Origin: Phycisphaerae bacterium
GTDB taxonomy: Bacteria; Planctomycetota; Phycisphaerae; UBA1845
DNA: 64,000 bases
Direction of reading: 5' to 3'
Assembly: GCA_024102815.1 (NCBI GenBank)
Contig: JAGFJJ010000048.1
Span: forward strand, 62,001-126,000
Position numbers and translations under genes: made by a program. Of this stretch, positions 23,295 through 63,140 are shown in pieces; position 1 is the first letter of the stretch, and every line of letters begins with the position of its first letter. A model generated the notes under the pieces. That model had not been told where the DNA came from. It worked only from the letters and a program-made list of their open reading frames with translations, and did no database searches.

Positions 23295-25538
23295 TCAATA
23301 GATGACGATGTCCGCGGCGGTAAAGCTGGTGTAATCCGACTGCGACATGCCGATCTTCGCGATCACGCGGATCACGTCGCCCGCTTCAATGATAGTGCCC
23401 GTGCCGTTTGTGGAAAGTGCCTCAAAAACCACGCACTGCCCGGCCGTGGTGTCGTAGAACGAACCCGCCATGGAAGTGCCCGCCGTCAGGCCGGTTACCG
23501 TCGCCGAGCCGATCGCGGCGTCGAACGTCGCCTGGTCCGTTCCGGCGTTGGCGACCGCAGCCGTCAGCTTGATGAACTGCGTCGTGCCCACGGCCGTCGC
23601 ACCGCCCTGGCCCACTTCGGCGACCACGACCTCGCCCACCGCGGTCGCCACAAGTGAACCGGCCGCGCCACCGCCCTGAGCAAGCCCGACAACGCCCGGC
23701 GCCCCGAAAGTATTTCCTGCGGATATCGCTGCAAGGTCGTCGCCGTCCGCCCAATCCATGACAACATCGGAGCTCGCGCCGACGGCCACGCTATTATCAA
23801 AACGGAAGGCGTCGCTTCCGCCGCCGCCGGCAAGCTGATCGCTTCCGGATCCCCCGTTGATCGTGTCGCTTCCACCACGCCCATTGATGTTGTCGGCGCC
23901 GGGCGAGCCGAGCAACGTGTCGTTGCCGCTCCCGCCCACGATGTCGGCACCCGAGGAATCCGCGAGGGAGTAGTTCATGCGTCCCGTCGCGGTCGATGCG
24001 TTGACGCTGGTCACCGTGCTCGGCCAGGCATTGGATACCGTCAAATGGCCAGCGCCGGAGATATTCACGGTGGCGAGTGAAGTTCCCGCATCTTGAACAA
24101 ACTCGGTCAGCGTATTGCTAGTTCCGTTGGAAACGACGTTCAGCGTCTCGATGCCATTCGCATCGGCGGAGACGATTGTCACCGTCCCGCCGGTCACCTG
24201 TTGCAGCGTCAGCGTCATGTCATCCGCAGCACCGACCGTGGCAGCCGCGACGTTCGAAAGCGTTGCCCCGACGGCTTGATTGGTCAGGCCAAGATCCACA
24301 ATTGCGGCAAGGTTGGTGAGCCGCAATGGGTTGGTGTTGATGCTGTTAAGAACGTGCACATCTGTAAGGCCTGTGATATCGTCGCCTGCAAGAGTGGTCG
24401 TTGCTACACCGAGATCGGTGAGGTTGAATAGCTCGATCGAGACCAGCGTCGGCGAGACGACGGTGGAGGCCGTGAAGTTGAAAGCCGCGTTTAGTGTGTC
24501 GCTTCCTTCTCCCAGATCAATAGAGTCACCGGTCTGAAGCGAAGGAAGCGAAGTTCCCGTTGGAGCGTTAAATAATAGAGGAGCGCTTATTGTGTCATCA
24601 TGTGAAGTACCGGTGATGGTGTCGGCTCCGAGAGTGAGGCCAAAGGGTGGATCAACGATCACGCAGGAGTCTTCGTAACACGTCAAGGGGGGCGAACAAG
24701 GATCTTCTTCCGCAACGCACGAAAACTCCGCGCACGTCTCCGCCCCGTTACAAAATATTCCATCGTCGCAATCCGCGTCCGTTCGACATTCCGCTTCGAC
24801 GCAGGCGCCGACCTCTACATCGCAGCCTTGGCCTTCCGGGCAATTGTCCGCATGCACGCATTCGCCCGTCTCGCCGTCACACGAATCGTCCGTGCAGGCC
24901 ACGCCGTCATCGCAGTTGTTGGCTAGGTGAACGCACACTCCGTCCGCGCATCCGTCGCCCGTGCAGAGGTCGCTGTCGTCGCAATCCTCATCGGCCGCGC
25001 ACTCCGGGGCGACGCACACGTCGCCGTCTTCGTCACAAGTCTGGTTCTCCGAACAGGGCGCGATGCCCGCCTGGCAAGCGCCGTCTGCACAGAATTCCAC
25101 GCCATTGCAGTAAGCGCCGTCGTCGCAGTCCGCGTCGGCAAGACAATCCACGCACGAGCCATCGGCCGGATCGCACATCTGACCCGCCGCACACTCGACC
25201 GGCGGATGTTCGCACGCCCCGTCCGCACATACGTCGTTCGTGCACAAGTCCCCATCGTCGCAGTCTGCGTCTTCCTGGCACTCGTCGCAGCGGTCTTCTG
25301 CCTCGTTGCAGAATTCGCCCTCCGCACAGAGATCCTCGGCGGCCACACACATGCCGTCAGCGCACGATTCCTCGCCGTTACAGAATGAGCCGTCCTGGCA
25401 TTCGGCATCATCAGTGCAGGGGTGGTCTGCAATCGGAATGCACCCGGCCAGCATTCCAGATCCGAGCGCGAAAAATCCCCACCAAATCACCGGTCGAGCG
25501 GGGAGGAAACCCCGCCGCCATCGCTTGAGCATGGACAT
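23295..25538 (-). CDS. Cys-rich and RTX-repeat lipoprotein, S-layer-like
   Basis: A 747-residue predicted lipoprotein with lipobox MLAGC (Cys33). Residues 40-285 hold about six Cys-rich repeats of the DADCDDGxxCNGxExCADGxC type. The next 230 residues (LGADTITGTSHDDTI, GDSIDLGEGSDTLNA) resemble the beta-strand body of type I-secreted surface-layer proteins. A short block of calcium-binding RTX nonapeptides follows (about 527-575, GGSGNDTLLG, GGSDTINGGSGSDQLAGG), then a C-terminal domain. Lipid anchoring with RTX repeats is an odd mix, since RTX proteins usually leave by type I secretion without a signal peptide. No ABC/HlyD/TolC export genes are adjacent. GGAG lies 7 bases before the ATG. Surface role inferred. 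Confidence 0.82.
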   Translation of the reverse strand: MSMLKRWRRGFLPARPVIWWGFFALGSGMLAGCIPIADHPCTDDAECQDGSFCNGEESCADGMCVAAEDLCAEGEFCNEAEDRCDECQEDADCDDGDLCTNDVCADGACEHPPVECAAGQMCDPADGSCVDCLADADCDDGAYCNGVEFCADGACQAGIAPCSENQTCDEDGDVCVAPECAADEDCDDSDLCTGDGCADGVCVHLANNCDDGVACTDDSCDGETGECVHADNCPEGQGCDVEVGACVEAECRTDADCDDGIFCNGAETCAEFSCVAEEDPCSPPLTCYEDSCVIVDPPFGLTLGADTITGTSHDDTISAPLLFNAPTGTSLPSLQTGDSIDLGEGSDTLNAAFNFTASTVVSPTLVSIELFNLTDLGVATTTLAGDDITGLTDVHVLNSINTNPLRLTNLAAIVDLGLTNQAVGATLSNVAAATVGAADDMTLTLQQVTGGTVTIVSADANGIETLNVVSNGTSNTLTEFVQDAGTSLATVNISGAGHLTVSNAWPSTVTSVNASTATGRMNYSLADSSGADIVGGSGNDTLLGSPGADNINGRGGSDTINGGSGSDQLAGGGGSDAFRFDNSVAVGASSDVVMDWADGDDLAAISAGNTFGAPGVVGLAQGGGAAGSLVATAVGEVVVAEVGQGGATAVGTTQFIKLTAAVANAGTDQATFDAAIGSATVTGLTAGTSMAGSFYDTTAGQCVVFEALSTNGTGTIIEAGDVIRVIAKIGMSQSDYTSFTAADIVIY

Positions 25539-52104: not shown

Positions 52105-54117
52105 ATGAAACGGCATCTGATCCGACCCTTGAGCCTTACTCGCGTACTCGTGTCCTCGCTGCTGTTGGGCGTCTTCGCGCTGGGTGCGGCGGCACACGAA
52201 GATCACCAGTTTGACGAGGATCGCCAGCCGCCCTACGACGGGCCCGGATGGAAGAAAGTGAATGGTGGCTCACCATCACTGGCGTTCGTCGGCACCAACA
52301 TCGAACTTCGCAGCTGGATCACGTTGCTGGAGTTCAATTCCGGCGCGACCTCGGCTGACGATTGTTGGGGATACGTGTCTCCGTCCGGCCGGGAGTACGC
52401 CCTCATCGGTCTCTCGCTCGGCACGGGAATCGTCGAGGTGACGAATCCCGACGATGCTCAGATTATCGCGGTTCTGCCCGGCCCGACGAGCATCTGGCGC
52501 GATCTTAAAGTTTACCAGCATTATGCCTATGCCGTCAGCGAAGGCGGCGGCGGGATCCAGGTGTTTGATCTTTCGCAGATCGATCAGGGCGTCGTCCAGC
52601 AGGTCAACACGGTGCTTACCGGACCGGGGACATCCGCGACGCACAACGTGGCCATCAACGAGGAGAGTGAATTCCTCTATCGGGTTGGCGGAGGCTCATC
52701 TCCAATACAGGGCTTTCGCGTCTATGACCTCTCAGATCCGGCCGCGCCGGCCTATGTGACCACCTGGAACAACCGTTATTGTCACGACGTACAAGCCGTG
52801 AATTACGTGGAGAACAATGGTCCGACGCCGACTGTTCGGGAGATCGTCTTCTGCTATGCGAACGATACCTCCGGCGGCGGCAATCCCGGAATCGCCATCC
52901 TCGATGTCACCGACAAGCTGAACATCTTCGAGGTGGGATCGATCAATCTCGCTGCACCGCCGATCTTCTCGCATCCGGCGCGCTTCTCACACCAGGGCTG
53001 GCTTTCGCCGGATCGAAACTACATCTACTTCGGCGACGAGGTTGACGAAGGGGCATCGCCGTTTCCGCCGACCACCACGCGGATCATCGATGTCTCCGAT
53101 CTGGCCAATCCCGTTCAGATAGGCGTCTTCTCCAACGGCAATACGTCACGCGACCACAATGTCTACACTCGTGACAACTGGATTTTCGAGGCTAATTACC
53201 GCAGCGGTCTTCGCATTTTCGACGCCACCGATCAGCTGAACCCCGTGGAAGTCGCATACTATGACACGTATCCGGGAAGCGACTCGGCCAACTACAACGG
53301 CCTGTGGAACGTGTTCCCCTACTTTCCCAGCGGAACAATCATCGGCAGTGACATCGAACGGGGCTTGTTTGTCTGGCGTTTCAATGCGCCGGCCGATCCG
53401 CCCACCGGCCCGAATCCCGCGGCCGGCTATCCACACGCGGCCCTGAAGAACCGCTACGTGAGCTTCTCGCCCGACGCATCACTTCTCGGCACGCCGCACG
53501 CCTATCGCGTGCAACACGTGGGCAGCGGATCGGCCTGGTACGTCAGCACTCCGCGAACAACGCCCGTATCGATTGACGGACAGGGCTTGTGTTTCCTCGT
53601 CTCCGATCCTGCCCCGCCGCTCCATGACTTCGCGTCCGAGCCCGTGCTGCACGTGGGCGGCTGCATGATTGCACCGGGACAGTCCTATGAGGTGCGCACC
53701 ACGACGGACGGAATCCTCTTTTCCGATCCGCTCGTCGTTTCAACCGCCTCCCAGCCGACGAACGGACGATGGTGGGCGGACGTTGCCGGGTTGCTGAGCG
53801 CGGCGGGAGACGGCTCCACCATTCCGCCAACGCCCGCCGGAGCATGGACGCCGCCCGACGGACTCGTGAGCGGATTCGACGTGACCGCAATATTGGGCGG
53901 TTTCGTGCAGTCCCCTTCGGCCGCGCACTTCACGTGGCTCGACCTCAACCCGGAACGCACCGACCGCGTGGTCAACGGCAACGACATCCTCCAGGCGGTC
54001 AACGCGTTCTCCACCGGCAGTGGGAAGGAGTTCTATCCTTTCGCGATGCCGCTGGCCGGACCGCAAGGGCAACCAATCTGCCCGGCGCCGCCGTTGTCAT
54101 CGGCGCTAAGTCCGTAG
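52105..54117 (+). CDS. Choice-of-anchor B secreted beta-propeller-like protein with dockerin-like tail
   Basis: A 670-residue exported protein. The signal peptide ends near residue 30 (GAAA|HED). The main part (about 35-430) matches the choice-of-anchor B family, with repeated phrases of the LVIVP/beta-propeller kind (GIVEVTNPDDAQIIAVLPGP, GFRVYDLSDPAAPAYVT, TRIIDVSDLANPVQIGVF, LRIFDATDQLNPVEVAYY). These families carry alternative C-terminal sorting tails; here the tail has dockerin-like Asp segments (GLVSGFDVTAILGGFV, RVVNGNDILQAVNAF). A HNVAINEESEFLYRVGG-type loop is also typical. Start at 52105 by GAGGAGGG and the signal peptide. Function unknown. Confidence 0.85.
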   Translation: MKRHLIRPLSLTRVLVSSLLLGVFALGAAAHEDHQFDEDRQPPYDGPGWKKVNGGSPSLAFVGTNIELRSWITLLEFNSGATSADDCWGYVSPSGREYALIGLSLGTGIVEVTNPDDAQIIAVLPGPTSIWRDLKVYQHYAYAVSEGGGGIQVFDLSQIDQGVVQQVNTVLTGPGTSATHNVAINEESEFLYRVGGGSSPIQGFRVYDLSDPAAPAYVTTWNNRYCHDVQAVNYVENNGPTPTVREIVFCYANDTSGGGNPGIAILDVTDKLNIFEVGSINLAAPPIFSHPARFSHQGWLSPDRNYIYFGDEVDEGASPFPPTTTRIIDVSDLANPVQIGVFSNGNTSRDHNVYTRDNWIFEANYRSGLRIFDATDQLNPVEVAYYDTYPGSDSANYNGLWNVFPYFPSGTIIGSDIERGLFVWRFNAPADPPTGPNPAAGYPHAALKNRYVSFSPDASLLGTPHAYRVQHVGSGSAWYVSTPRTTPVSIDGQGLCFLVSDPAPPLHDFASEPVLHVGGCMIAPGQSYEVRTTTDGILFSDPLVVSTASQPTNGRWWADVAGLLSAAGDGSTIPPTPAGAWTPPDGLVSGFDVTAILGGFVQSPSAAHFTWLDLNPERTDRVVNGNDILQAVNAFSTGSGKEFYPFAMPLAGPQGQPICPAPPLSSALSP

Positions 54118-54165: not shown

Positions 54166-54882
54166 ATGTTCCGCCGAATGCTCTTCTGGGCGCTGACGGT
54201 TTCAGCCATTCTGACGGCGTCACTTGCGCTGGTCAGCCAGCGATCGGCGATCATGATTGTCCACGGCCGCGGGATGCTTCCCAGCGGCCTGCAGGAGCTG
54301 GGCTTCAGCCGGGGGTCTTTTGTACTCCAATCCACCTTCGACCCCACTTCACCCGGTTCGTCGGTTCTCGGGTACCTGCCCGATTGGATTGAAGTTCTGG
54401 GCGTCTCCTACCAGGCGAGGAGCTGGGCACGGGGCGCCGGATACCTCCAATTGAGCGTAAGCCTTTGGTCGGTCGCAGTTCTCCTCGGCCTGTACCCCGG
54501 CGCGGCGACCCTGCTGATTCCGTTTCGATTTGCGCGACGCCGTGCCCGGCAGCAGTGCCATCGCTGCCGATACAGTCTCGTGGGCAACACCAGCGGAGTC
54601 TGCCCGGAATGTGGCGAGCCATTGATGGCCGCATTCCTTCCGCCGTGGCAGCGAACCTGTGTTGCTTTGGCCACGGCGCTCATCGTCGCCCTGCTCGTGG
54701 AATACGTCGTTCAGCAATTCGCCATTCAGCATCGCATCGCGATCTGGTTTATCCAGTGGTTTCGCACGGACAATGGCGCCTGGCTGATCACCGCGCTGAT
54801 TCGCTGCCTGCCGGTGGCCGCGGTGAGCCTGGGCAGCTATTTGTACCTCAGTCCTGAACGGTTTCCGGACCGCCGGCCGTGA
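54166..54882 (+). CDS. Membrane protein with CPECG zinc ribbon (1)
   Basis: A 238-residue membrane protein with helices at about 4-22, 90-115, 165-185 and 205-225. Between the second and third lies a zinc ribbon, CHRCRYSLVGNTSGVCPECG (about 126-145). This layout, a cytoplasmic CxxCxYxLxGN...CPECG knuckle between helices, is very common in planctomycetes and of unknown function. No strong ribosome site. It lies 48 bases after the choice-of-anchor B gene and before the papain-like lipoprotein. Confidence 0.8.
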   Translation: MFRRMLFWALTVSAILTASLALVSQRSAIMIVHGRGMLPSGLQELGFSRGSFVLQSTFDPTSPGSSVLGYLPDWIEVLGVSYQARSWARGAGYLQLSVSLWSVAVLLGLYPGAATLLIPFRFARRRARQQCHRCRYSLVGNTSGVCPECGEPLMAAFLPPWQRTCVALATALIVALLVEYVVQQFAIQHRIAIWFIQWFRTDNGAWLITALIRCLPVAAVSLGSYLYLSPERFPDRRP

Positions 54883-55057
54883 TGGCCCCCCGCCGTGCGC
54901 CCGATCTTCCCGATGCGCTTGGCCTCAAGGCGCGTCCCTGCCGATGATATTCCTTGCCCGGCCGCGCTCCGGCCGGGAAACTTGGGTCTCCGGGCCCGAC
55001 GGCGCCGGCGCGCCCGCCGGGGTCGATCATCCGAATCTGAACACAGGGAGGAAGGTA

Positions 55058-57067
55058 ATGCGCAATCTACCGTGGTTCCGCTTTCTGGCGGTTGTGCCGA
55101 TTCTGGTCCTGGCGTCCTGCCCGGCGACGATGCCGCCGCCCGATGGCGGAATGACTGAGGGAGTAACTTTCGGGGCCACGGAGCCCGATCGCTCCGTCGT
55201 CGAGGCGCGCCCGCAAACGATCAATCCGTATGCCGCCAACGCGGACGCCGAACTGCCCCGCTCGGCCGATCTCACCCGCGACCTTCCCCCCATCGGCGAC
55301 CAGGGCGGGCTGGGCTCGTGCACGGCGTGGGCGTCGGGCTATGCCGCGGCGACCTATACCGCCAATCGCCAGTTCGGCTGGGGCGCGAGCACCTCGTCAC
55401 ACCAGGCTAGTCCGGGCTACCTCTATGAGCGCCTGATCGAGACGGACAATCTCGATTGCGGTTCGGGCACGTTCATTCAGACGGCCATGAACCTCCTCAT
55501 CCAGGACGGCTGCTCGAGCTTCGACACGGTGGACTACAGCGACCAGGTCTGTTCGGCCAATTCGTCCACCAGCGATGCGGCCAACTTCCGCATCGGCAGC
55601 TTTAACCGCGTCGTGGAAACCGATCGGCACGCGGTCCGCGCCGAATTGGCCGCGGGGCGCATACTGGTGATCGGCGCCAGCCTGTACGACGATTTCCCCC
55701 AGTGGACGGGCGACGGCGTCTACCGCGGCAGCGGGAATTTCCTCACACAGGGCAGCCAGCACGCCGCCCACGCCATGGCCGTGGTAGGCTACGACGACAA
55801 TCGCCAGGCCTATCGCATCATGAACAGTTGGAGCACGGCATGGGGTGACTTCGGCTTCATGTGGATGCACTACGACACGTTCCACGCGACCGTGTTCGAA
55901 GTGTATTCCATCGAGCCGGCCGGTGACCGCCAGCCGCCCTCGCCTCCGGGACCGGGACCCGAGCCTGAGCCATTGCCTGATCCGGATGCGTTCCTCGACG
56001 AGGCCTACCAGTTCGCCGACGTCGATCCGGTCTCACGCGAGGATCAGGTCTATCTCGTCTTCTACTATCACTTCACGGCTCCCGTGTTCATCCGCACGAT
56101 CACCGTCACCGACCCCTCACTCAATCAGGGGCAGCAGACATACAACGCCTGGTACCAGGAGGGGTATGTCTATTTCGTGCAGACCGGCGGATTCCAATGG
56201 GAACCCGGCCCGTACACGATCGAGTTCAATACGCGAACGGAGAACGGCAACGACATCATCTACAGCGGCGTGGCCGACATCGCGGCACTGGATGATGGCT
56301 CTTCCGACAACGGGCTTTGCTCCGATCTGTGCATTTTCGCCTTCGACGGCGAGTGCGACGACGGCGGGCCCGGCGCGGATTACAACGTCTGCGCGTTCGG
56401 AACCGATTGCTTCGACTGCGGTGTCCGCGGCGATGACAGCGGCGTCGACATGCTGTGCAACGACACCTGCCGGTACGCGGGCGACGGCGAGTGCGACGAC
56501 GGCGGCCCCGGCGCCGACTACGCCGTCTGCGAGTACGGAACCGACTGCACCGACTGCGGGTCGCGCGATGACGTCGTCGTCGACCAGCTCTGCGAAGACT
56601 CCTGCATCTTCGCGTTCGACGGCGAGTGCGACGACGGCGGAGCCGGCGCCGACTTCGACGTGTGCGCCTTCGGCACGGACTGCTTCGACTGCGGGCCGCG
56701 TGACCCCAATGATCAAACCGACGCCTTCTGCACCGATACCTGCCCCTTCGCATTCGACGGGGAATGCGACGACGGCGGGCTGGGGGCGCTCACCGACGTG
56801 TGCGCTTTCGGCTCAGACTGCTTCGATTGCGGGCCGCGCAGCGCCGACGGATTCAAGAGCGTCGTGAAACCGGAATCCGCGGCCGCCTCAACCGGAACCG
56901 GCGAATCGTCCAAACCGACGGCGCGCAAGTTCCGGGGTATACCCATCAAGACGCCCGCGTGGGCCAAGGAATTGCCCACGGCCGGCGTCCGCGCGGAAAC
57001 GCTGGGGGCCAACCGTCAGCCGGTGACGATCGTTCAGCCCGAACCGGCCGATGAGGGCGAGAAATAG
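55058..57067 (+). CDS. Papain-family (C1) lipoprotein with Cys-rich repeats
   Basis: A 669-residue predicted lipoprotein with lipobox LASC (Cys21). A C1 peptidase domain (about 70-290) has the nucleophile in GLGSCTAWASG, His in GSQHAAHAMAVVGY and Asn in IMNSWSTAWGDFGF. A Pro-rich spacer and a beta domain (about 310-415) follow. Four repeats of about 44 residues come next (419-595), each CxxxCxFAFDGECDDGG...VCxFGTDCFDCG. A short tail ends the protein. The repeats resemble small disulfide-stabilised calcium-binding modules. GGGAGG precedes the ATG. A textbook terminator follows, so this is the end of a transcription unit. Likely a surface protease. Confidence 0.88.
   Translation: MRNLPWFRFLAVVPILVLASCPATMPPPDGGMTEGVTFGATEPDRSVVEARPQTINPYAANADAELPRSADLTRDLPPIGDQGGLGSCTAWASGYAAATYTANRQFGWGASTSSHQASPGYLYERLIETDNLDCGSGTFIQTAMNLLIQDGCSSFDTVDYSDQVCSANSSTSDAANFRIGSFNRVVETDRHAVRAELAAGRILVIGASLYDDFPQWTGDGVYRGSGNFLTQGSQHAAHAMAVVGYDDNRQAYRIMNSWSTAWGDFGFMWMHYDTFHATVFEVYSIEPAGDRQPPSPPGPGPEPEPLPDPDAFLDEAYQFADVDPVSREDQVYLVFYYHFTAPVFIRTITVTDPSLNQGQQTYNAWYQEGYVYFVQTGGFQWEPGPYTIEFNTRTENGNDIIYSGVADIAALDDGSSDNGLCSDLCIFAFDGECDDGGPGADYNVCAFGTDCFDCGVRGDDSGVDMLCNDTCRYAGDGECDDGGPGADYAVCEYGTDCTDCGSRDDVVVDQLCEDSCIFAFDGECDDGGAGADFDVCAFGTDCFDCGPRDPNDQTDAFCTDTCPFAFDGECDDGGLGALTDVCAFGSDCFDCGPRSADGFKSVVKPESAAASTGTGESSKPTARKFRGIPIKTPAWAKELPTAGVRAETLGANRQPVTIVQPEPADEGEK
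56317..56840 (+). repeat. Four tandem Cys-rich coding repeats
   Basis: Four copies of an about 44-codon unit inside the papain-like lipoprotein. Each has the core GECDDGG and ends in GTDC-DCG, with GSDC in the last copy. Copies differ at many third positions, so the duplication is not recent. Confidence 0.85.
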
Positions 57068-57245: not shown

Positions 57246-57746
57246 TCATCCCCGAATGGTCCTGAGTATGTCACTCAGGAAATCAAGTGGTCCGCGATGA
57301 ATCCAATCGTAGTTCGCGAGCCAGAAGAAGACGGTTAGTCCTGCGATCTCGAATCCAAGCCATCCCAGGAATCCGAACCGTCGTCGCTTTCGGATATAGG
57401 TAGCGGCGAAGGTGGCTACGATTCCAAGGTGAAGCAGCAATCCAGGCCAGAACGTCCAGTTGAGGAATTCTCTCGTCGCACGACCCATGTGTCCTATCTT
57501 GATTGGCTCCAGGCTTAACCGCACACCTGCGGCGACGATCAGCGCAAGCCCCACAGCCGCCAGCACAAACATGGCCGCTCCGGAACGCGGAATCCGCGGC
57601 GACTTCGAGTACGTCACAGGATCTTCGGGATCGAACTCGCCGCCGCACTCGGGGCAGCGCGGCCGCTCAAGTCCGCGAAGCGGATACGCACAGTCAAGGC
57701 AATACTCTTCTGGGAGATCGTGTCGCGAATGTTCTGGGTTCGACAT
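57246..57746 (-). CDS. Membrane protein with CPECG zinc ribbon (2)
   Basis: A 166-residue protein that opens with the zinc ribbon YCLDCAYPLRGLERPRCPEC (about 15-34). Three membrane helices follow (about 57-78, 98-118, 130-150). It is the same ribbon type as in the gene at 54166-54882, but at the N-terminus. GAGG lies shortly before the ATG at 57746. It follows the GspG-like gene by 31 bases on the same strand. Function unknown. Confidence 0.78.
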   Translation of the reverse strand: MSNPEHSRHDLPEEYCLDCAYPLRGLERPRCPECGGEFDPEDPVTYSKSPRIPRSGAAMFVLAAVGLALIVAAGVRLSLEPIKIGHMGRATREFLNWTFWPGLLLHLGIVATFAATYIRKRRRFGFLGWLGFEIAGLTVFFWLANYDWIHRGPLDFLSDILRTIRG

Positions 57747-57777
57747 GATCCTCGATCCAATCGCCCCCACAGCGGGG

Positions 57778-61520: not shown

Positions 61521-62195
61521 TTACTTGGTGAACCTGCGGCGGGACAGCCCCATTGCCGCAAGGAGCCCTGCGCCCAGAAGTCCGAGCGTGGCCGGCTCCG
61601 GGACGACGGTGAATTCGGCCGTTCCCCCGGTGAGATTACCCAGCCGGGGACGCGAATCGACAATGGGATCGAGCCCGCCGAAGCCGGACATGACCCGAGC
61701 CCCCGTCGGATCATTCAGATCAGAAGGATTGTCCGACGGCGTAAGCAGGGTGAAATTGAACGTCGTCTCGGAGACAACATTCGGCATGGTGATGTTGAAA
61801 GAACCGAGCCGGAGCGCGCTCCCGTCGCCCGGCAGCAGGTACTGCCCATTCGTATTCAACACGACGCCCAGGTACGCCACCGACGGGATCGGTGGATTCC
61901 CGAACGCCGCGTAGCCCACGCCCCCATCCGGAATCGACGTGAAGTCCCAGGTAAACCCGTTGACCGCCATCTCGATGGGATCGTCCGAGTCACGAATGTC
62001 GAGTTGGACCAGGCGAAGGTAACGATCCGCGACGCCGCTCACCGGATTCGCCAGGTCGACAAAAACATCGATGGTCTGTCCGGGGTTGTACGGACCGGCC
62101 GCGCTGGGCGTGAGCGTGAATTCCTGGGCCACCGCCGCGCGGACCGAGGTCACAAGTATGAATGCAACGAGTGTGCGAACGAATCGACGTGACAT
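61521..62195 (-). CDS. PEP-CTERM sorting-domain protein (1)
   Basis: A 224-residue secreted protein. A signal peptide (about 1-23) leads into a beta-rich domain with a cohesin-like opening (AGPYNPGQTIDVFVDLANPV). The C-terminus is a PEP-CTERM sorting tail: VPEPATLGLLGAGLLAAMG followed by SRRR. Such proteins are processed by exosortase and usually delivered to the outer surface or matrix. It is a paralogue of the next gene (shared GDGSALRLGSFN and DSRP blocks). GGAGGGG lies before the ATG. Confidence 0.9.
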   Translation of the reverse strand: MSRRFVRTLVAFILVTSVRAAVAQEFTLTPSAAGPYNPGQTIDVFVDLANPVSGVADRYLRLVQLDIRDSDDPIEMAVNGFTWDFTSIPDGGVGYAAFGNPPIPSVAYLGVVLNTNGQYLLPGDGSALRLGSFNITMPNVVSETTFNFTLLTPSDNPSDLNDPTGARVMSGFGGLDPIVDSRPRLGNLTGGTAEFTVVPEPATLGLLGAGLLAAMGLSRRRFTK

Positions 62196-62399
62196 GATAG
62201 AATTCCCCTCCGGGCAAGTTCGCAGCAACAGCGTCTCGCGGACCGGCCGGGCATTCTGCGCAAGCCTCAAACAGCGTTGCGCGAAAATACCGCAATTTCC
62301 TCCATTACTATTTTATCCGTGGGCTATCGTGCAATCAATCCCTAATCGCACCGGGTTGCACCACGCAGATCATCAGTGCACCCTCAAGCACACACTCCC

Positions 62400-62486: not shown

Positions 62487-63140
62487 CTATGCTTTCCGGC
62501 GGCGACGCAGCACCGCCAATCCGCCAAGACCCAGCAGCGCCAGCGTAGCCGGCTCGGGCACTACGGTGAGCGAGATCGACCCGCCCGACAGATTTCCCGT
62601 ACCGGGGCGCGAGTCAATCGTCGGATCGGATGCAATCATGCCGAACCCCGAAGAAACCCGCGTACCCGTGGTCAGATCAAAGGCCGAATCCGGCGGCGTG
62701 AGGACGGTGAGGAGATACGTCCCCGGCGCATTGGGCAAGGTCACATTGAACGAGCCAAGACGCAGGGCGCTCCCGTCGCCCGCCAGCAGGTACTGCTGGT
62801 TCGGATCTTCGCTCAGCCCCAGGTAACCGACCTGCGGAATCGGCGCCACGCCGGACACGAGGTAGCCGGAGCTCCCCGTGTTGACCGAACTGAAATCCCA
62901 CGAAAATCCGCCGTTGATCGCCGCTTCAATCGCGTCGTCGGAGTTGCGGATGTCAAGCTGCACATCGCGCAGGTAACGATCCGGCGCACCACTCGGCTGG
63001 GACAGATCGACGAAGATGTCGATCGTCTCCCCGCCGGTGTACGTCCCGCCGACGCTGGGCGACAGCGTGAAGGTCTGTGCCTGGGCCGTACCGACCCCAA
63101 GCACGACCGCCGTCGCGATGATGGCTAGTTGCTTCAGCAT
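62487..63140 (-). CDS. PEP-CTERM sorting-domain protein (2)
   Basis: A 217-residue secreted protein with a signal peptide ending AQA, a cohesin-like beta domain (GGTYTGGETIDIFVDLSQPS) and the tail VPEPATLALLGLGGLAVLRRR. It matches the neighbour at 61521-62195 along its length, including RYLRxVQLDIRxSDD and YLLxGDGSALRLGSFN, so the two are tandem duplicates that have diverged. Confidence 0.9.
   Translation of the reverse strand: MLKQLAIIATAVVLGVGTAQAQTFTLSPSVGGTYTGGETIDIFVDLSQPSGAPDRYLRDVQLDIRNSDDAIEAAINGGFSWDFSSVNTGSSGYLVSGVAPIPQVGYLGLSEDPNQQYLLAGDGSALRLGSFNVTLPNAPGTYLLTVLTPPDSAFDLTTGTRVSSGFGMIASDPTIDSRPGTGNLSGGSISLTVVPEPATLALLGLGGLAVLRRRRKA

Follow-up and report, generated by a model that had tools for sequence, protein, structure and literature searches.

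A predicted papain-family lipoprotein of a Phycisphaerae bacterium and its mobile cysteine-rich repeat

The gene, its parts and its surroundings

The window, i.e., the whole stretch of 64,000 nucleotides analysed here, comes from a contig of a Phycisphaerae bacterium and carries, at 55058-57067 (+), an intact open reading frame (ORF) of 669 residues that encodes a predicted lipoprotein with a papain-family (C1) protease domain and four cysteine-rich repeats. The longest mechanical ORF starts at 54944, and the start at 55058 was chosen because a purine-rich stretch, GGGAGGAAGG, lies immediately 5' of this ATG and the lipobox then falls at signal-peptide distance; the lipoboxes of the orthologs lie at a like distance when these are started at a Met before their own lipobox. 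The predicted signal peptide (55058-55120, +) ends in the sequence LASC, which fits the lipobox rule, with Cys21 as the putative lipidation site. This Cys is unchanged throughout an alignment of the window protein with 14 relatives (15 sequences), and the lipid anchor proposed in an earlier note on this DNA holds as that of a predicted lipoprotein. A short region with the conserved motif RPQxINPYAAN follows (55121-55255, +) and may act as a propeptide.

The protease domain (residues 67-274; 55256-55879, +) matches Pfam Peptidase_C1 (PF00112) with an E-value of 3.7e-14; its score of 53.8 bits lies above the cut-off of 20.7, which each of the seven other repeat-bearing orthologs clears too. The best match by both sequence and structure is xylellain from Xylella fastidiosa (PDB 3ois), and in the sequence alignment with it the catalytic Cys88 (55319-55321), His238 (55769-55771) and Asn256 (55823-55825), together with the oxyanion Gln82 (55301-55303), all on the + strand, find their counterparts. 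Since the four residues are also invariant, and in the same order, in all 15 aligned sequences, the intact Cys-His-Asn protease of the earlier note stands, with no catalytic residue out of place. Xylellain is retrieved by phmmer at E 1e-12, with 26% identity over the aligned part, and superposes on residues 30-289 of the predicted model (Z 23.1, 240 residues, rmsd 3.6), a match that includes part of the N-terminal region; cathepsins and plant papains score near Z 19-20 against the same model, and a silicatein is also among the fold matches. The papain fold is present as far as this predicted model goes.

Beyond the protease, a Pro/Glu-rich linker leads to a beta-strand domain of about residues 306-411 (55973-56290, +), to the four repeats of six Cys each (56315-56428, 56453-56566, 56588-56701 and 56726-56839, all +) and, through a further linker, to a C-terminal tail of about residues 621-669 (56918-57064, +; RKFRGIPIKTP...LPTAGV...LGANRQP). 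The beta domain and the tail, both conserved, did not figure in the earlier list of parts. The beta domain matches no Pfam family above noise, and its best sequence match in the PDB (E 0.12) was rejected as a relative; the whole protein finds no NCBIfam family at E up to 1. The full-length AlphaFold2 model is poor (mean pLDDT 53.0, about 25-32 in the repeat region), and blocks of the tail at residues 631-660 score 69-82 in it, which would fit a tail that folds back onto the core. The idea that the tail might be a general sorting signal is unsupported; it occurs in 8 of the 51 genomes of the window's family, namely the seven with orthologs and, weakly, G016. The match in G016 (contig C437, 597-701; E 0.0085) has a stop inside and may be a piece of an ortholog that has been lost or was not assembled.

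When positions 42001-64000 of the window were compared with the reading frames at eight related loci, which span 5-19 kb apiece (one is truncated by its contig end), no operon partner was found, and only the gene itself and its antisense frames matched, save for one neighbour match in L187 (31% over 123 residues, E 2e-12). With no neighbour shared apart from that match in one locus, the gene seems to stand alone, without a conserved partner. The flanking genes at 54166-54879 (+) and 57246-57770 (-) are membrane-protein-like and carry a CxxCxYxL...CPECG motif of zinc-ribbon type. Just upstream of the protease gene, 52120-54114 (+) matches no Pfam family at E up to 1; it resembles an LVIVD-type beta-propeller in sequence and, at its C-terminus, a dockerin. 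Further away, 23295-25538 (-) is a predicted lipoprotein and another disulfide-rich surface protein of the window, presumably with N-terminal Cys repeats of CxxDxxCxDG type and an RTX-like GSGNDTL stretch towards the C-terminus. The neighbours at 61521-62270 (-) and 62487-63140 (-), perhaps a duplicate pair, have ends (VPEPATL...RRR) that we take to be PEP-CTERM-like.

The repeat: sequence, spread and cysteine pairing

The window repeats are 38 residues long, follow the pattern GECDDGG...GTDCxDCG and agree with one another pairwise at 24-32 of the 38 positions, far beyond chance, so that the four disulfide-type repeats previously noticed at 56315-56839 are borne out. They are strongly acidic, with 8-10 Asp/Glu against 1-2 Lys/Arg per 38 residues. 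Their very recent duplication was considered and is unsupported, the identity at third codon positions being 55-76%. A repeat model of 19 rows from Planctomycetota and Myxococcota, the four window repeats included, has 14 invariant columns and matches each window repeat at E 1.1e-19 to 1.2e-18, and a single isolated repeat is modelled at pLDDT 96.1 (50 rows).

Against all of Pfam, at E up to 1, the repeat array found only zf-HYPF (0.48, below its own cut-off), in a search whose program filters may lose weak matches; the granulin model gave no match there, nor did that of the Lin-12/Notch repeat, which we take to be a look-alike. Pfam searches with the repeat parts of L122, L022, L053, L012 and L021 stayed empty up to E 1, as did NCBIfam searches, at the same limit, with those of the two Myxococcota proteins L122 and L022. 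No match was found in the PDB by sequence, or by fold with Foldseek (a weak test for a module of 41 residues), nor among phages, plasmids and viral contigs. Literature searches, with most subscription journals outside their reach, gave no occurrence of the repeat peptide strings and, among the matches listed, no paper on the repeat in bacteria. In the versions of Pfam and NCBIfam consulted, the repeat has no entry.

At E 1e-6 the repeat was found in 24 of the 51 genomes of the window's family and in 1 of 343 genomes of the phylum (the window's own). At the same threshold it was found in 12 of 195 genomes sampled from the phylum of G393 (Myxococcota), and a four-Cys model matched 7 of 198 sampled from the family of G397 (Alphaproteobacteria), where both counts include the genome chosen for being positive and both samples are subsets of larger groups. 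Exact window peptides occur in named genomes at no fewer than 11 loci from 26 stretches, which is a floor, and the relatives with names are metagenome-assembled Phycisphaerae, Planctomycetota, Myxococcota and Alphaproteobacteria. A profile search of the first loci yielded 108 repeat copies in 51 ORFs, to which the Myxococcota sample added 19 in 16 ORFs and a pattern search for the four-Cys form 7 further ORFs from the alphaproteobacterial sample. The resulting 74 repeat-bearing ORFs from Planctomycetota, Myxococcota and Alphaproteobacteria are distinct by sequence, were drawn from best matches and not as an unbiased census, and may count contig-end fragments of one gene twice (e.g., L014 and L101, both from G040).

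Proteases of three catalytic classes account for 30 of these 74 ORFs (29 of them by Pfam): 14 M10 matrixins, 8 C1 and 8 trypsin-like enzymes. Seven of the latter were recognised by Pfam (L029, L030, L120, two in L166, L202 and L203), and the eighth, L204, has the His and Asp motifs, with a masked stretch beyond them. No protease was recognised in the other 44, the Pfam scan covering 66 of the 74 ORFs (outside it were L014, L050, L154, L162, L164, L165, L173 and L204). L083, a candidate by its GDSGS motif, was dropped, as Pfam found no protease there. Other partners are carboxypeptidase-regulatory-like (5), peptidoglycan-binding (2), VWA7-like (1) and laminin-G-like (1) domains. The repeat stands after the M10 domains and before the trypsin-like ones, and a signal-peptide tally of 67 ORFs, made with a crude pattern without control, gave 40 with a lipobox, 12 with a hydrophobic segment only, 10 open-ended and 5 with none. 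Judged by these sequences, the repeat is a mobile module. The earlier note was half right in calling such proteases unusual, given that the architecture recurs in 7 of the 51 family genomes and that the module, within the ORFs collected, is commoner on matrixins and present on trypsin-like enzymes too. In the class of G393, a PF00112 scan was positive in 2 of 16 genomes, a result left out of the counts given here.

Several single proteins are worth recording beside this set. L096 (2179-5463, -), from the window's family, joins VWA7 N-terminal, VWA and hemicentin-type domains, whose names derive from animal proteins, to the same repeats. The repeat-bearing matrixins L012 and L013 share a conserved C-terminal tail of their own (GRAKSDLYFPVPS...), unlike that of the C1 group. 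A C1 lipoprotein of the family, L153 (1447-3501, +), ends in a different Cys repeat (CNPDCxEDPDCDE), and because of it the C-terminal modules on the C1 proteases of the family may have been swapped.

The repeat exists in six-Cys and four-Cys forms, which differ in Cys1 and Cys5. In a parse anchored on Cys3, both residues are present in 79 repeats, both are missing from 42 and none of the 121 is discordant; 6 of the 127 repeats stayed unparsed, four being partial hits and two having no alignable Cys2. The first parse of 108 repeats had given 62 with both, 38 with neither and 8 unparsed, as well as three four-Cys repeats with an upstream Cys at another distance (one in L119 and two in L028, where it is the final Cys of the repeat before). 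When the parse is loosened to admit more upstream residues, two apparently discordant repeats emerge in the first set (98 + 2) and none in the second. All of these are counts of sequences and not of independent events. Four-Cys repeats are carried by L018, L020, L115, L119 and L120 of the planctomycete family, by L163 and L164 of the Myxococcota sample and by alphaproteobacterial ORFs, and since they span these three groups the coupling is unlikely to reflect a single inherited event. Because no parsed repeat has Cys1 without Cys5 or the reverse, the two are predicted to form one disulfide, and Cys2, Cys3, Cys4 and Cys6 would form two more.

Orthologs and known systems

The full protein is matched at E 1e-5 in 28 of the 51 genomes of the family; in many of them the match covers just the protease or the repeats. 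Full-length repeat-bearing orthologs occur in seven, the window's own included (G000, G006, G007, G018, G020 with two copies, G021 and G034), which makes eight proteins with one to four repeats, the seven others being 49-64% identical to the window protein. One repeat is present in six of the eight, three in another and four in the window protein; several orthologs show low-complexity Asp/Tyr/Gly stretches at the repeat position, and the linker after the protease is Pro/Asp-rich and of variable length. No other gene with the repeats was found in the genome that the window comes from (79 contigs, completeness 95.09%, contamination 3.73%). In G457, from the same order and another family, the ortholog L142 (33-34% identical) keeps the protease, the beta domain and a shortened tail and has no repeats, for which reason the simplest reading, taken from this one outgroup, is that the repeats are an add-on that the window's family would have gained between beta domain and tail.

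Bacterial C1 proteases, lipoproteins and acidic disulfide-rich repeats are each of already known kinds, and what appears new, within the reach of the libraries and searches employed, is their combination, along with the protease-associated repeat. Xylellain is a single-domain enzyme according to a 2023 study of the papain family (PMC10380794), to which the window protein adds the repeats and the tail. The same source describes many prokaryotic C1A peptidases as complex multidomain proteins that it leaves without detailed analysis, and presents Cwp84 of Clostridioides difficile as a surface C1 protease with an accessory domain (PMC10380794); the latter is lectin-like, however, and is set apart here by its description. 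The same order of C1 domain, proline-rich linker and C-terminal disulfide-rich module is described for RD21-type plant proteases in PMC3292552, where the granulin-bearing form of RD21 is said to aggregate and granulin removal to be probably autocatalytic. Granulin is nonetheless a different module (no Pfam match), and these enzymes come without such a beta domain or tail. Nor are they known to carry a lipid anchor. Among repeats, TIGR02232 (myxo_disulf_rpt) is likewise acidic, disulfide-rich and, by its name, from Myxococcota, but it does not match the window protein. L122 has both kinds, with the best TIGR02232 stretch at residues 587-620 and no match of that model, up to E 1, to residues 90-450, which hold six repeats of the window kind. 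Rusticalin-type repeats, compared by text description only, are also disulfide-rich and fused to many hydrolases, but 374 of the 382 proteins bearing them are eukaryotic, and the text singles out Gly and Pro as conserved, not an acidic core (PMC7379824).

What the repeats may do

How would these parts work together? We infer an exported lipoprotein protease, lipidated and most likely displayed on the outer cell surface, that would be made as a zymogen and become active once its short N-terminal segment is removed or displaced. Protease, beta domain and tail would form a catalytic unit that digests proteins outside the cell, and the acidic repeats between beta domain and tail would dock it on a substrate, a surface polymer or a matrix, perhaps with the help of calcium, whose binding is a guess prompted by the acidic core. 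That the window protein is an extracellular protease anchored in this way at the surface and docked through an acidic module stapled by disulfides is a proposition to which we give an even chance. What speaks most for docking is the company that the module keeps, namely three unrelated protease chemistries and several proteins of adhesion type; against it, the repeat matches no known binding family (Pfam, PDB sequence, Foldseek). Avidity through tandem copies would not be general, given the single repeat of most orthologs. To speak of binding repeats, as the earlier note did, is plausible, while its mention of host proteins is unsupported, as nothing seen points to a host.

The main rivals to docking are a granulin-like control of maturation and an inert spacer. 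Under the former, which we consider unlikely, the repeats would act like the granulin domain of RD21 and hold the enzyme insoluble or surface-bound until clipping releases a soluble protease; the shared order of parts and the variable Pro/Asp-rich linker, a likely cut site, speak for it, but the clipping would also remove the conserved tail beyond the repeats, the same repeat follows M10 and precedes trypsin-like domains of unrelated enzymes, and Pfam sees no granulin. A rigid, protease-resistant spacer would account for a copy number that varies from 1 to 4 and for the low-complexity stretches found at the repeat position in several orthologs, and disulfide modules do withstand proteolysis. 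Nonetheless, the core is conserved between Planctomycetota and Myxococcota beyond what a spacer needs (14 invariant columns over 19 rows), and with the anchor at the N-terminus the C-terminal repeats do not part the protease from the membrane, which leaves this role improbable as well. Some papain-family proteins have lost their activity, and a silicatein does appear among the fold matches; even so, a structural or binding protein with an inactive protease fold is very improbable here, in view of the invariance of Gln82, Cys88, His238 and Asn256 in the 15 aligned sequences.

Returning to docking, its general form is that the GECDDGG...GTDCxDCG repeat is an uncatalogued mobile docking module of exported proteases (cysteine, metallo- and serine enzymes alike) across three or more phyla, with six-Cys and four-Cys forms that differ by the Cys1-Cys5 disulfide, and this we put somewhat below an even chance. 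The window protein and its orthologs make up one multidomain prokaryotic C1A group with a clear body plan, although the main gain is the repeat module itself. Its presence on three protease classes in three phyla suggests a shared docking part for extracellular digestion. If it is one, it would help to learn in what way planctomycetes, a poorly cultured group, and other bacteria retain and break down extracellular protein, and the repeat would be a small disulfide scaffold open to testing.
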